Positions 45,277-50,981 of a stretch of DNA of 53,526 nucleotides are shown piece by piece. Within the stretch, counting starts at the first letter, position 1. Every line of letters begins with the position of its first letter. The stretch is taken from the NCBI GenBank assembly GCA_012512925.1, contig JAAZDE010000099.1, positions 1-53,526 of the forward strand, written 5' to 3'. A program made the position numbers and the translations under genes. This DNA comes from Desulfuromonadaceae bacterium (GTDB lineage: Bacteria > Desulfobacterota > Desulfuromonadia > Desulfuromonadales > JAAYDE01). The notes under the pieces are model-generated. The model made no database searches and was not told the origin of the DNA. It was given only the letters and a program-made list of their open reading frames with translations.

Positions 45277-46401
45277 CTACATTCTCCCGTCAAGCGTCGA
45301 TTGTTTTTTGGCCCGGGAAGCCGGACGGGAGGGCCTGGGCAGATCGGCGAAGGATTCGATCCAGCGTCCGAACAGCGTTTCGCACTTGCGGCAAGCCCTA
45401 CAGTTCTTGTCGCAGGAAGCCACGGTCTCGAAAAAATCACCAGGCAATTTGGCGTTGTCGATAAACACATCCTTGGAAAGGATCTGGGTGGCGTCGAGAA
45501 GATCGAGCAGATTGCCGTTGTATTTCCGGTCCAGGTAAGCCTGAAAGATCATCTTCATGCGATTGGGCGGCAGGGTCTTGCCACAGACCTTGAGGATGTC
45601 GGCCAGCCCTTCCAGGTGATGGATATCTTCCGGTCGCACGAAGGGAGAACGAAACACGTTGGCCGGATTCCTGAGGTTGCTGTTCTGACAGCCGTAGAGC
45701 TTGTTCAGGTTGAAGTCGTCGCAATCCGTGTCGCGATGGATCTGTTGTTGATTGTGATCATTGGACATGGAGATGAAGATGTCGTGATTGACCTTGAAGG
45801 GGCAGTGGAGCATACATCCCTCGTTGACCAGAACCTCGATCTTCAGTTTGGAATCAAAATCTTTCAGTTGCCCGCAAAGCCGCCGCAATCCCTGAAGATC
45901 CCGATTCAATCCGCGATCAATAATGACCTTTTTAGTGCGGAAAGCACCGCAGGCATCCTCAAGATAGCGGCGCATGGTGTGAAACTTCCCGATGGTGTCG
46001 ATAAAACAGTTGACGCTCGGCACCAGTTCCAGTTCCCCAATTCGCGGCTCGATGGCGATCAGTCGGCGGATATAGAAAAAATCAAGAAAAATGATCCCAT
46101 GCAACTGACCCTGATCATGGAGGTCCAGCATCAGGCGGGCGTTTTCCCGCACGTTGCCGGCGGAGTAATTGATGGGTGGGTTGTAGCGCCCGTTCAGGGT
46201 CACATACTTTTTGATCTTATCCGGCACTTTTTGCAGAGCCAGCAACAGTTCGTCGTAAGTCGGCTTGCTGTAGATGACCCTGGCGTCGTTCATGTAAGCG
46301 CTGGGGAGGGTGAAAAAGATGGAATAGATCTTTTCCTGATGAGCCTGGATTATCGACGACATGAAATCATCGGTGGTTTTGAGGGGGATATCGAATTGCA
46401 T
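45277..46401 (-). CDS. Peptidase U32-like protein with C-terminal cysteine cluster
   Basis: Protein of 374 residues with the U32 hallmark EVLVNEGCMLHCPFKVNHD near residues 188-206, on a TIM-barrel-type scaffold (NGRYNPPINYS, VPSVNCFIDTIGKFH). Relatives such as UbiU/UbiV and RlhA use Fe-S clusters and act on small molecules or RNA rather than as peptidases. The C-terminal region has VASCDKNCRACRKC, a CxxxCxxCxxC pattern, after which the chain ends in a basic, Ser/Pro-rich tail. Together with the conserved Cys residues in the core these could hold one or two metal clusters (inference). It lies downstream of ahcY, separated by a perfect hairpin, so it is likely its own unit. Confidence 0.8.
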   Translation of the reverse strand: MQFDIPLKTTDDFMSSIIQAHQEKIYSIFFTLPSAYMNDARVIYSKPTYDELLLALQKVPDKIKKYVTLNGRYNPPINYSAGNVRENARLMLDLHDQGQLHGIIFLDFFYIRRLIAIEPRIGELELVPSVNCFIDTIGKFHTMRRYLEDACGAFRTKKVIIDRGLNRDLQGLRRLCGQLKDFDSKLKIEVLVNEGCMLHCPFKVNHDIFISMSNDHNQQQIHRDTDCDDFNLNKLYGCQNSNLRNPANVFRSPFVRPEDIHHLEGLADILKVCGKTLPPNRMKMIFQAYLDRKYNGNLLDLLDATQILSKDVFIDNAKLPGDFFETVASCDKNCRACRKCETLFGRWIESFADLPRPSRPASRAKKQSTLDGRM

Positions 46402-46496
46402 GCAATCACCTGTGCGAATATTGAAATTTCCCTAAAAGGGTCTTTGACTATACCCCGCGGAGCCGGACGACATCAACACGAAAAGGTTTTTAGAGT

Positions 46497-46526
46497 GAAA
46501 GGGGCGATTATCGAATCGCCCCTTTC
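46497..46526 (-). terminator. Perfect 13-bp hairpin after ahcY
   Basis: GAAAGGGGCGATT and its exact complement flank a 4-nt loop, starting 8 bases after the ahcY stop. There is no clean T-tract on either side, but position and strength fit a terminator or mRNA 3'-end protector. Confidence 0.55.
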
Positions 46527-46533
46527 ATAATTT

Positions 46534-47958
46534 TCAATAACGGTAATGATCCGGCTTGTACGGCCCCGCCACCGGTACACCGATGTAATCGGCCTGTTTT
46601 TGCGACATTGCGGTCAGTTGAGCGCCAAGTTTGGCCAAATGCAGAGACGCCACTTTCTCATCCAGAAACTTGGGAAGAATGTAAACCTGCTTCTGATATT
46701 GGCCTCTTTTCTGCCACAGTTCCATCTGCGCCAAAACCTGGTTGGTGAAGGAGGCCGACATGACAAAGGAAGGGTGACCGGTAGCACAGCCGAGGTTGAC
46801 CAGCCTCCCCTTGGCCAGCAGGGTAATCCGCTTGCCGTCGGGCCATTCGATCTGATCGACCTGGGGCTTTACTTCATGAATCTTGAGGCCAGGGTCCTTG
46901 AACAGGGAATCGACCTGGATCTCCGAATCAAAATGGCCGATATTGCAGACAATGGCCTCGTTCTTCATTTGATTCATGTGCTCACGGGTAATGACATCGA
47001 CGTTTCCGGTACAGGTGACGAAAATGTCCCCCCACTGACAGGCATCATCCATGCGCACTACGGGAACCCCTTCCATGGACGCCTGGAGGGCGCAGATCGG
47101 ATCGATTTCGGTGACATAGACCATCGCCCCCATGCCGCGGAAAGCCTGTACGCATCCCTTGCCGACGTCGCCGTAGCCCAGAACCACACATTTCTTGCCG
47201 GCGGTCATGATGTCGGTGGCCCGCTTGATGCCGTCGATCAGGGATTCCCGGCAGCCGTAGAGATTGTCGAACTTGCTCTTGGTCACCGAATCATTGACGT
47301 TGAAGGCCGGGAACAACAGCGTCTTGTTCTTGGCCATATGGTAGAGACGATGGACGCCGGTAGTGGTCTCCTCGCTCACCCCGACCAGTCCCTCGGCCAT
47401 TTTCCGCCAGCACCGGGGATCTTCATCAAGGGTGGCGTTGAGCAGCCGGTCGATGATTTCGATCTCGGAATTTTCGGTGCAGATTGCCGGCTTGACGCCG
47501 CTGTTTTCGAACTGCCGTTCCCGTTCGACGCCGCGGTGCACCAGCAGTGTCGCGTCACCGCCGTCATCCACGATCAGGTTCGGGCCTTCCGGATGGGAGA
47601 GGGCCAATTTGGTGTATTGCCAGTATTCTTCCAGGGATTCTCCCTTGTAGGCAAAGACCGGAATGCCGCGCTCGGCAATGGCGGCGGCGGCATGATCCTG
47701 GGTCGAAAAAATGTTGCAACTCGCCCAGCGCACCTCGGCGCCCAACTCCACCAGGGTCTCGATCAGTACCGCGGTCTGGATGGTCATGTGCAAAGAACCT
47801 GTAATCCTGGCCCCTTTAAGAGGTTTGGCGGCACCAAACTCGGCCCTGGTGGCCATAAGCCCGGGCATCTCGTTTTCCGCCATACGGATCTCCTTGCGCC
47901 CCCATTCGGCCAGCTTCAAATCCTTGACAACATAGTTTTTAGCTTTTTCAACCGACAT
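46534..47958 (-). CDS. ahcY: Adenosylhomocysteinase
   Basis: NAD-dependent enzyme of 474 residues that splits S-adenosylhomocysteine into adenosine and homocysteine, clearing the inhibitor left by methyltransferases. Seen in the sequence: an N-terminal substrate domain with [21 protein letters not shown] and [35 protein letters not shown], the NAD site [25 protein letters not shown], and the conserved C-terminus [10 protein letters not shown], whose Lys-x-x-x-Tyr residues reach the NAD of the neighbouring subunit. GGAGGA precedes the ATG. It follows directly on the SahR-type regulator gene, whose stop is adjacent to the ahcY start, so the regulator and its likely target are cotranscribed. Confidence 0.97.
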
Positions 47959-48924
47959 TCATTCCTCCATGAAAAGCGACAGCGTTTCCGACTGAATCCT
48001 GCCTTCACCTTTACGGGCTCGCAGGATGAAAAGATCAAGTTGACCGTTGTTCCCTGGAATCTCTTCCCGTGACTCCAGGACAAAACCGGCGCGGTCCAAA
48101 AAATCCCCCATATCCTCAAGGCTGAAACCGAGCCATTGGTCGGCCAGTTTGTCTCTTACCCATTCCTGTTCGTGAGGGAGAAGATCGGCCACTACCAGAG
48201 TACCGCCGTTTTTCAGCACCCGGGACGCCTCTCCGAGAACGGCGACGGGATGGGGAGCATGATGAAGAACCATATTAAAAACCACCAGGTCGACCTCCCT
48301 CCCGGCCAAGGGTAGATGGGACATATCGCCGACGCGGAGATCAACACCCTGGAGACCTTCACGGAGAACCCTTTTGCGTGCCTCCTCGATCATCTCCAGG
48401 GACTGATCTATGCCGACCACGAGGATCGACTTGCGGGCCAGGCTAGGAATCAGGGAGCCGGTGCCGCAACCGACCTCAAGTGCGGTGTTTGCGTTTGGCA
48501 GAAATTTAAGGAACCGATCTTGGTAGTTGGGGAGCGGCAGAAACTTGTGCAACGTACTGTCCCAGTTCCGCGCCTGGCGATCGAAAAAATGGCGACTGGC
48601 CTTTTTCCGTTCCTCCAGACAATCGAGCATCGCCGTGGCATCACGAATGACTTCGGGCAAAAGGGCGACCTCCCCTTCGATAGCTGACCAGATACGGTCG
48701 AAAACGGCAACGTTTCTCTGCAGTCGGTAATACCCCCAGGTACCCTGGCGTTTGACGGAAACCAGCCCCGCGTCGAGGAGAACTTTCAGGTGGTGAGAAA
48801 CCAGGGGCTGCCGCAGATCAAGAATGGAGGTCAATTCACGGACCGTGAATTCACCCCCCTGGAGAACTCCAAGGATGCGTAAGCGGGTATCGTCAGACAG
48901 TGTTTTAAGGGTGGCCTTCAACAT
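47959..48924 (-). CDS. sahR: SahR-type ArsR regulator fused to SAM-binding domain
   Basis: Protein of 321 residues. Residues 1-75 are an ArsR-type winged helix (VRELTSILDLRQPLVSHHLKVLLDAG is the helix-turn-helix). Residues about 130-260 are a methyltransferase-like domain with ALEVGCGTGSLIPSLA (148-162), GIDQSLEM and VDLVVFNMVLHHAPHP. Proteins of this layout beside ahcY are known as SahR in proteobacteria, where the second domain senses S-adenosylhomocysteine and releases the operator. The gene is first in the operon with ahcY; promoter and palindromes lie directly in front of its start. No Shine-Dalgarno is visible; the A of the ATG is the last base of an inverted repeat. It could instead be a true methyltransferase, but context favours the regulator. 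Confidence 0.88.
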   Translation of the reverse strand: MLKATLKTLSDDTRLRILGVLQGGEFTVRELTSILDLRQPLVSHHLKVLLDAGLVSVKRQGTWGYYRLQRNVAVFDRIWSAIEGEVALLPEVIRDATAMLDCLEERKKASRHFFDRQARNWDSTLHKFLPLPNYQDRFLKFLPNANTALEVGCGTGSLIPSLARKSILVVGIDQSLEMIEEARKRVLREGLQGVDLRVGDMSHLPLAGREVDLVVFNMVLHHAPHPVAVLGEASRVLKNGGTLVVADLLPHEQEWVRDKLADQWLGFSLEDMGDFLDRAGFVLESREEIPGNNGQLDLFILRARKGEGRIQSETLSLFMEE

Positions 48925-48960
48925 AAACCAAAATTGATATTTTAAAGTAATTTTGGTTTA
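48924..48960 (-). promoter_or_regulatory. Perfect 12-bp inverted repeat over -10 and start of sahR
   Basis: TAAACCAAAATT and its exact complement AATTTTGGTTTA are separated by 13 bases and span from the -10 element to the start codon of sahR. Probable operator for autoregulation. Confidence 0.65.
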
Positions 48961-48987
48961 TATATTCTATTTATCCAAATTGATCAA
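48959..48987 (-). promoter_or_regulatory. Sigma-70 promoter of sahR-ahcY
   Basis: TTGATC and TATATA are 17 bases apart on the minus strand, with a predicted transcript start about 28 bases before the sahR ATG. The -35 lies inside the AATTGATCAATT palindrome. Confidence 0.65.
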
Positions 48988-48989
48988 TT
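48978..48989 (-). promoter_or_regulatory. Palindrome AATTGATCAATT at the sahR -35
   Basis: Perfect 12-bp palindrome; the half-site AATTGAT is repeated at 48932. Both features fit a dimeric ArsR-type repressor site covering the promoter. Confidence 0.6.
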
Positions 48990-49059
48990 AAAAAATATCC
49001 CCCCCCTGTGGTGCAATGCATGGCAAGTTCCTTGAAAATTCTTAAATCATTTGGGATTG

Positions 49060-49800
49060 TCATGGTAGATCGAACAGCAGAGTATGCCGCTGACCGGTCC
49101 TGACCTCTTCCAACTGCAGCCGCAGGCTCTTGGCCGATGGGGCTTCGCCGGGAAAGAAAAGAAACCCATGGGCCATCGAGCCCGCCCCGATCACCTTGTT
49201 CTGCAGTTCCTTGTTGGCCAGGTCGCGGGAGATCTGCCGTCCCGCATCCTCGGAGAGTCCCCCCTGAATACCGCCGATAGTGGCGCCGCCGGCGCCGCCG
49301 ATGGCCGCTCCCTTGGCCAGGGCGGTTCCGACATTCTCCCCGGTCAGAACGCCGATAGCGGCCCCGATCAAGGCCCCACTGGCGGCGCCGAAAATGGCTC
49401 CTTTGCCGCCCCCCTTGACGATCCGGGCATACTCGGTACTCTTCTCCATTCGCTCATAGGCCACCGAGCCCTGAAGCAGATTCCACATATTGCCCTGCCC
49501 GTCGATGAGGAAAGTCTGAGAAGTCACAATTTGCAGTTCCTGATCCCCGGTGTTGTCGATCACCACCTGAACCGGCAGAATCCCGGTGGCGCGGATGTCG
49601 AAACCGAAAACCTCCTTGGCCTGTTTCGGGTCGGCATGGGACTCCACCGCCACCTGGGCCCCCGAAACATACTGCATGTTGGCGAAAGCCGAGGGATGGC
49701 GGAAAGAAACCTCCCGACTTTTATAGGTGGCGCAGCCCGAAATCATGAGGATGATCGCAAAAGCGGTGATGAGACGGCGGATTCTAGTTGCTCTCGTCAT
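49060..49800 (-). CDS. Glycine-zipper outer-membrane-type lipoprotein
   Basis: Lipoprotein of 246 residues. The ATG at 49800 follows GGAGG by seven bases; the track start at 49845 is rejected. The signal peptide RLITAFAIILMISGC has a lipobox at its end. Residues about 30-135 form a beta-rich domain (VQVVIDNTGDQELQIVTSQTFLIDGQGN), then a glycine-zipper stretch AIFGAASGALIGAAIGVLTG plus GGAGGATIGGIQGG near 140-190, a membrane-inserting pattern. The C-terminal part (AHGFLFFPGEAP) is followed by a final strand. The role is unknown. It is preceded by the glycosyltransferase gene with a 41-base gap and may share its transcript. Confidence 0.85.
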   Translation of the reverse strand: MTRATRIRRLITAFAIILMISGCATYKSREVSFRHPSAFANMQYVSGAQVAVESHADPKQAKEVFGFDIRATGILPVQVVIDNTGDQELQIVTSQTFLIDGQGNMWNLLQGSVAYERMEKSTEYARIVKGGGKGAIFGAASGALIGAAIGVLTGENVGTALAKGAAIGGAGGATIGGIQGGLSEDAGRQISRDLANKELQNKVIGAGSMAHGFLFFPGEAPSAKSLRLQLEEVRTGQRHTLLFDLP

Positions 49801-49841
49801 GGAACGCCTCCTTTTTTCACGTTGATTCAGTTTGCTTTCCT

Positions 49842-50981
49842 TCAACTATATCCTTTTCCCGAGCGCTTGGAAAACTTCCTCCAGCGGCAAATGAACCGGT
49901 AGCAATGGAACCACAGCCAGGCCAGCAGAGTGGTCGCCCCTCTGCCGAAAGCGTTTTCAACCCAGGGGCGCATTCCGGCATCATAGGCGCCGAGAAAAGG
50001 GGTTTCCTTAACCGGCGGCAAATGACCCCCCTTCACCCAGCGGCGCACATCGAGGAGGAGAGCGACCTGCCACGCGTTGGAGTTGATGTAAGCACCGGTT
50101 CGCCGCCAGAGCCGGAAGCGGCGCCGCCAGGACTCTTCCCTCAGCAGTTCGGCCGTTTTGTCGAAAAATGGAAGCAGTTCCAGTCGGCCGCATTCATGCT
50201 GCTGACGGTAGATGCCGCGGCTCTCCGAGAAGAACGGATGCCAGCCGATGGCGCGGCAATTCATGATCAGGGCATTGAGGATTTGGCGCTCGAAAAGACC
50301 CTCCTCTTGGAAGCGGCGCGCCGAAGTGCCGATTTCTGCAGGCAACAAAACCCATTTTCCTCTGGCAAAGACCGCATCGGCCAGAGCTTCATCCTCCAGT
50401 ATCGGCAGATCTTCACGGTACCCCCCCAGGTCGCTGAAAAAGGCTTGGGCCATCATGAATCCCTGGTCGCCATGGATACATCCGACACGGGTGAGGCGAG
50501 CCTTGGTTTCGTAGAAAAGATACGGCGTGGAGAAAACATCCCGCCCGCGTTCAAAGCGCAGAGCGAAGCGCCCGGCCGCGGTGAAATCCCCATCTCTTTT
50601 CCATTCGGCCTTGAGTGTATCCAGACCCTGCCGCAAGGCCAGAGGATTTTTAAAAGAGGAATCGACATGAAGGAACAGAAGCGTTTCCGCCCGGCTTTGG
50701 CCGATGCCGGCGTTCATCTGACGGCCGCGACCGGCCGCCCCGCTGACGACCTTAACGGGGAAAAAGGCGCCGGCGGCACAATTATAGATAATATTCAGAG
50801 ATTCATCCGCTGATCCCCCGTCACAGAAAATGACCTCGAAAGCTGCCCTCTGCTGACGAAAAAGATTGTCAAACAAGGCCTTAAGTGACTTTTCCTCATT
50901 TAACACAGGAACGATGATGGACAATTCAATTTGGTCCTTTTCCGCCAAGCATCCCTCTCTTTCTTGATTTTTCTTTTCCAC
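49842..50981 (-). CDS. Family-2 glycosyltransferase, TIGR04283 type, with C-terminal extension
   Basis: Cytoplasmic-face glycosyltransferase of 379 residues. The GT-A core shows LSIIVPVLNEEKSLKALFDNL, EVIFCDGGSADES, GRGRQMNAGIGQSRAETLLFLHVDS (the DxD-equivalent) and GDQGFMMAQAFFSDLGGYREDLPILEDEAL, all typical of the TIGR04283 group, whose members are near 220-240 residues. About 130 further residues follow, beginning at FFSESRGIYRQQHECG; part of that tail is hydrophobic (TTLLAWLWFHCYRFI) and could anchor it to the membrane. The track start is a GTG with little ribosome-binding signal; a TTG at 50948, after GAGGGA, is a good alternative. The acceptor is unknown. Confidence 0.85.
   Translation of the reverse strand: MEKKNQEREGCLAEKDQIELSIIVPVLNEEKSLKALFDNLFRQQRAAFEVIFCDGGSADESLNIIYNCAAGAFFPVKVVSGAAGRGRQMNAGIGQSRAETLLFLHVDSSFKNPLALRQGLDTLKAEWKRDGDFTAAGRFALRFERGRDVFSTPYLFYETKARLTRVGCIHGDQGFMMAQAFFSDLGGYREDLPILEDEALADAVFARGKWVLLPAEIGTSARRFQEEGLFERQILNALIMNCRAIGWHPFFSESRGIYRQQHECGRLELLPFFDKTAELLREESWRRRFRLWRRTGAYINSNAWQVALLLDVRRWVKGGHLPPVKETPFLGAYDAGMRPWVENAFGRGATTLLAWLWFHCYRFICRWRKFSKRSGKGYS

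Follow-up and report, generated by a model that had tools for sequence, protein, structure and literature searches.

What controls the sahR-ahcY operon of a Desulfuromonadaceae bacterium, and why do inverted repeats run through its promoter as far as the sahR start codon? The question is raised by a contig of 53,526 nt (JAAZDE010000099.1, the whole of which is referred to here as the window), for which a sequence-only reading had proposed two palindromic operators covering the promoter and start codon of sahR. SahR is an ArsR-family regulator responsive to S-adenosylhomocysteine (SAH) whose motif is a 20-bp palindrome, whose core targets include sahR and ahcY, and whose regulons occur in six of nine Desulfuromonadales genomes (Leyn et al. 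2014, PMC4239095). A further source describes SAH-dependent operator binding by SahR in Desulfovibrio and autoregulation by SahR in Ensifer aridi (PMC8877191).

The locus comprises two adjoining genes and a downstream hairpin:
47959..48924, minus strand: sahR, 321 aa, with an ArsR/SmtB-type helix-turn-helix (HTH; residues 4-70) and a class-I SAM-methyltransferase-like domain (residues 145-250); recognition helix RQPLVSHHL
46534..47958, minus strand: ahcY, S-adenosylhomocysteine hydrolase, adjoining sahR, with its own strong Shine-Dalgarno (SD) sequence, GGAGGA, located within the 3' end of sahR
46496..46527, minus strand: hairpin with 14-bp perfect arms (TGAAAGGGGCGATT...AATCGCCCCTTTCA), just 3' of the ahcY stop codon

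The gene identities first assigned to this pair are borne out. The ahcY product scored 607.6 bits against TIGR00936 (NCBIfam; cut-off 497.6), the N-terminal HTH of SahR matched NF033788 (81.5 bits, cut-off 55) as well as PF01022, and its C-terminal methyltransferase-like domain matched PF08241 over residues 149-245 (E 1e-24); PDB relatives match single domains only. An ArsR-type HTH joined to a methyltransferase domain is the architecture of SahR, in which the methyltransferase-like domain is the putative SAH sensor. The stop codon of sahR abuts the start of ahcY, and ahcY directly follows sahR on the same strand in 47 of 47 loci tested. Judged by sequence, the product of 48924-47959 is SahR-like and its gene forms one operon with ahcY, of which the hairpin at 46496-46527 is the probable terminator. 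Directly upstream on the same strand (49060-49845) lies a gene whose product has a lipoprotein-like signal sequence and glycine-zipper-like repeats, and for which no Pfam match was found.

The most conspicuous repeat at the sahR start is a perfect inverted repeat, ATAAACCAAAATT / AATTTTGGTTTAT, with arms at 48923-48935 and 48949-48961 that lie 13 nt apart. This had been described as a 12-bp repeat running from the -10 element to the A of the ATG; the repeat is real, but its arms are 13 bp long and it reaches from the 3' portion of the proposed -10 element to both the A and the T of the start codon (48924-48922). None of 1000 dinucleotide-preserving shuffles of 48850-49060 produced as long a perfect arm (mean longest arm 6.7, maximum 11), and the window holds just two further perfect repeats whose arms are at least 11 bp long and whose spacer is at most 30, one of them the terminator-like hairpin after ahcY. 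As had also been noticed, a palindrome, AATTGATCAATT, at 48978-48989 overlaps the -35-like TTGATC, and the half-site AATTGAT is present in both repeats (48932-48938 and 48978-48984). The promoter elements to which these positions refer are:
48982..48987, minus strand: proposed -35, TTGATC, 17 bp from the -10; kept in the sister species (locus L013), TTGACC in most orthologues
48959..48964, minus strand: proposed -10, TATATA, likewise placed and spaced in the sister species and in class orthologues

A generic promoter consensus scan reported no promoter here at its threshold, the TTGATC/TATATA pair matching at 8 of 12 positions. The reading of these hexamers as -35 and -10 is nevertheless supported because the pair is conserved, the sister species having TTGATC-N17-TATATA in the corresponding position and most relatives TTGACC-N17-TATATC.

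A repeat that ends in a start codon could also act in RNA, folding in the mRNA to hide the AUG and so control translation, for example on transcripts that read through from the upstream gene. Such read-through is possible, since a terminator scan found no terminator between that gene and sahR, and a transcript containing the whole repeat can pair into a 13-15 bp stem whose end takes in the AU of the AUG, at about -14 kcal/mol (z -2.4 to -3.9); in the sister species the stem has 9 bp and shows two compensatory changes (-6.8, z -1.7). However, the proposed -10 overlaps the left arm, which a transcript from this promoter would therefore lack, and from the predicted transcription start site (TSS) the structure is no better than chance (-5.2, z +1.0). 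The third genome of the window's family with SahR (locus L014) has no such hairpin, a covariance-model search of 46000-50000 against Rfam, SAH riboswitch included, gave no match, and in the rest of the class it is a DNA operator that is repeated. We consider control by such a hairpin improbable.

The nature of that unit emerges from the upstream regions of 52 order-level and about 80 further class-level orthologues, which provided 125 distinct sahR promoters outside the window's own family (f1). The operator of the class is ATCAA-N6-TTGAT, placed over the -10 (op1), with the shared form TAnATCAAGAAAAnTTGATnTA; its palindromic core, ATC-N10-GAT, is present in the orthologues' own sahR promoters. 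Unexpectedly, a downstream GAT lies at exactly +36 from op1 in 101 of the 125 promoters and at +35 to +37 in 123, and the (T)TGAT to which it belongs is the right half of op1 repeated 23 bp downstream. When a position weight matrix (PWM) of the operator was used, the best secondary site fell at +23 in 73 of the 125 and at +22 in 12, against an expectation of 1.3 per offset; TTGAT at the +23 place matched at five of five positions in 65 promoters and at four of five in 42, compared with 1 and 15 of 375 control placements. In most relatives this second site (op2) consists of one good half-site only. While its offset from op1 is locked, the number of bases that separate it from the start codon differs widely between promoters, and the half-site is therefore in register with the operator and not with the ribosome; for the same reason we rejected TTGAT before the ATG as a translation signal. 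SahR promoters of the class carry a putative second site that keeps register with the first and borders on the start codon; a half-site close to the start codon is the norm among them. The "unusual operator reaching the start codon" of the earlier description is accordingly real and conserved, and unusual only in its divergent sequence.

Sampled loci from outside the class mostly carry the operator, and nearly all of those with a recognisable one have no GAT at +35 to +37 on the sense strand, so that the downstream site looks class-specific. In three out-of-class sahR promoters (L231, L233 and L238) a second half-site is seemingly upstream, at about 22 bp. One promoter (L042, genome G132) breaks the 23-bp register: its two complete canonical operators, ATCAAGAAAAGTTGAT and ATCAAACTGGTTTGAT, stand only 19 bp apart. 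In the sahR-ahcY operons of Kiritimatiellota/Pontiellaceae (L005 and L006), ATC-N10-GAT sites that contain ATCCG half-sites lie close to the start codon (ATCCGGAAATACAGAT, ATCCGAAGAAACGGAT).

Placed in this register, the window presents three sites at 23-bp steps:
48969..48984, minus strand: op0, ATCAATTTGGATAAAT, a weak SahR-like site right after the TTG of the -35, shifted -23 from op1
48946..48961, minus strand: op1, ATAAACCAAAATTACT, at the canonical operator position, overlapping the -10 and the predicted TSS and holding the upstream arm (sense) of the inverted repeat
48923..48938, minus strand: op2, ATCAATTTTGGTTTAT, 23 bp downstream of op1, ending in the AT of the ATG

With the PWM, which was built from the 125 promoters without f1 and, given the changed recognition helix described below, may not be the true motif of this genus, op2 (48920-48941, 7.3) and op1 (48943-48964, 2.2) are the two best matches of the entire window, although op1 averages 29.6 elsewhere in the class and both are weak by that measure. 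Their cores are degenerate (ATC-N10-TAT in op2, ATA-N10-ACT in op1). Read on the other strand op2 is ATAAACCAAAATTGAT, identical to op1 at 14 of 16 positions; a single 16-bp operator occurs here twice, in opposite orientations and at a distance of 23 bp, which generates the long inverted repeat. The ATCAA of op0 directly follows the TTG of the -35, which likewise generates the palindrome TTGATCAA. The proposal of two palindromic operators was therefore right as to operator class but not as to the units, and TTGATCAA in particular is a -35 joined directly to the ATCAA half of a weak third operator. The footprinting of sahR promoters suggested at the time bears this out, the operator and the +23 half-site being conserved among the 125 promoters and TTGATCAA as a palindrome being confined, beyond the window, to the sister species and two relatives at order level. 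On its own op0 scores -13.8 in the window (P 0.45), but it is the top-scoring site in L013 (6.1) and L014 (6.3). When three equally spaced sites were sought at spacings of 12-44 bp, 23 was best in all three f1 genomes that carry SahR (the window, its sister and L014) and none of 400 shuffles reached this result at any spacing, in a test where the -35 fixes part of op0 and the -10 part of op1; in two loci of another family (L029 and L031) the best spacing was 22. The repeats are best read as three evenly spaced, weak putative SahR-binding sites.

The long inverted repeat might instead be a single 39-bp palindromic operator, one SahR oligomer reading the outer arms ATAAACC...GGTTTAT with a specificity new to the genus, and AATTGATCAATT being only a -35. 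That its 13-bp perfect arms form the best inverted repeat of the region, that the helix (RQPL) is unlike that of every other class orthologue and that op0 alone is not significant in the window would all suit such an operator. However, the sister species does not keep the arm length (ATAAATT/AATTTAT, then mismatches), whereas the 23-bp-spaced sites are kept in the window, the sister and L014, and the half-site is locked at 23 bp throughout the class. We regard a single long operator as unlikely.

The recognition helix is GQS[R/K][I/V]S in 125 of 125 class orthologues outside f1, and the Arg/Lys is lost in all three f1 proteins (RQPLVS in the window and sister, GQSTIS in L014). The window SahR thus departs from the pattern GQS[RK]xS, which is drawn from our own comparison and not from a published criterion. 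Its loss is confined to f1, the family in which op1 has decayed, an association that in three genomes is a correlation and not proof. Loss of an otherwise invariant residue, together with an f1 op1 of about 1-2 bits against the class mean of 29.6, might indicate that SahR regulation has itself decayed in f1, its sites merely drifting. Persistence of the three-site 23-bp register in three divergent genomes, and an intact sahR beside ahcY, make this very unlikely. It is possible, with the chances a little short of even, that the f1 SahR combines a changed DNA-reading helix with the exchange of one strong operator for three weak, cooperative ones spaced by 23 bp from the -35 to the start codon, a natural co-divergence of repressor and operator from a tandem ancestor common to the class. 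Comparison of canonical and f1 systems offers a clean test of joint change in helix and operator, and of the replacement of one strong site by many weak ones.

Translation signals differ between the two genes. As the sequence-only reading had it, sahR is preceded by no SD-like tetramer, and ahcY has GGAGGA. Such a tetramer precedes ahcY in 45 of 47 loci and sahR in 7 of 45; ahcY served as the control because starts of the crude window ORFs were too unreliable to be informative. Absence of an SD before sahR is, on this count, a feature of the class, and would hold SahR at low levels compared with AhcY. A second site at the start codon would account for the missing sahR SD beside the strong one of ahcY, op2 taking up the space where an SD would lie.

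Our working model is that the sahR-ahcY promoter probably carries a tandem array of SahR operators giving cooperative repression by apo-SahR and release by SAH. Dimers of apo-SahR would occupy up to three degenerate ATCAA-N6-TTGAT-type sites in 23-bp steps (about two helical turns), op0 lying just behind the -35, op1 on the -10 and TSS and op2 at the start codon, and their joint occupancy would block RNA polymerase. SAH, on accumulating, would bind the methyltransferase-like domain, SahR would leave the DNA and the operon would be transcribed; AhcY, with its strong SD, would be made in excess over SahR, SAH would be hydrolysed and repression would return. In f1, with the usual helix Arg/Lys lost, a single strong operator would have decayed into several weak ones. 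The operon, the sites with their spacing and conservation, the helix change and the SD contrast are read directly from the sequences, whereas binding, cooperativity and repression at this promoter are inferred, as is the response to SAH, by way of characterized SahR proteins. The region is most likely, from its sequence, a real autoregulatory SahR operator region, variant in its layout and in the divergence of helix and operator.

Regulation by SahR seems to be local in this genome, since no convincing SahR-like sites were found near metK, metF or metH in it or in most relatives, 5' coverage being incomplete for some of these loci; control of such SAM-cycle genes is not a feature that every SahR must have. 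A scan of the whole genome for ATCAA-N6-TTGAT with one mismatch allowed gave 31 sites. Rescoring of the retrieved loci with the PWM left two: a high scorer (L212) inside a coding frame of 1183 aa, and an intergenic site (L215) flanked by genes for a TonB-type receptor and an S1-domain-like protein; neither concerns a SAM-cycle gene and both were judged chance matches. The TonB-receptor-like frame at L215 (about 80-160, contig G000:C167, minus strand) has a run of about 18 glycines, a possible slippage tract.

An SAH-responsive SahR switch is already known, and the SahR regulon, that of an ArsR-family SAH-responsive repressor, was reportedly the subject of a 2014 study by Novichkov et al. The tandem layout and altered helix look undescribed in the passages compared here, and tandem sites may have been mentioned before. 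The likeness to the SahR regulon extends to the ArsR HTH with a methyltransferase-like sensor, the ahcY operon, a promoter-overlapping operator of ATC-N10-GAT type and an expectation of autoregulation; the difference is that the regulon report, in the passages compared, gives a 20-bp palindrome and does not mention a +23 half-site at the start codon, a triple array or a changed helix (PMC4239095). SamR of the Xanthomonadales is related to SahR and has the ATC-N10-GAT core in common with it, but according to the same report it targets metH, metB, metE, metF and metK, leaving out other SAM-cycle genes (PMC4239095), whereas the target here is ahcY. With an SAH riboswitch upstream of ahcY the locus would share SAH-linked control of ahcY at the leader, and it differs in having no Rfam match there and, in place of an RNA sensor, putative operators in the DNA.
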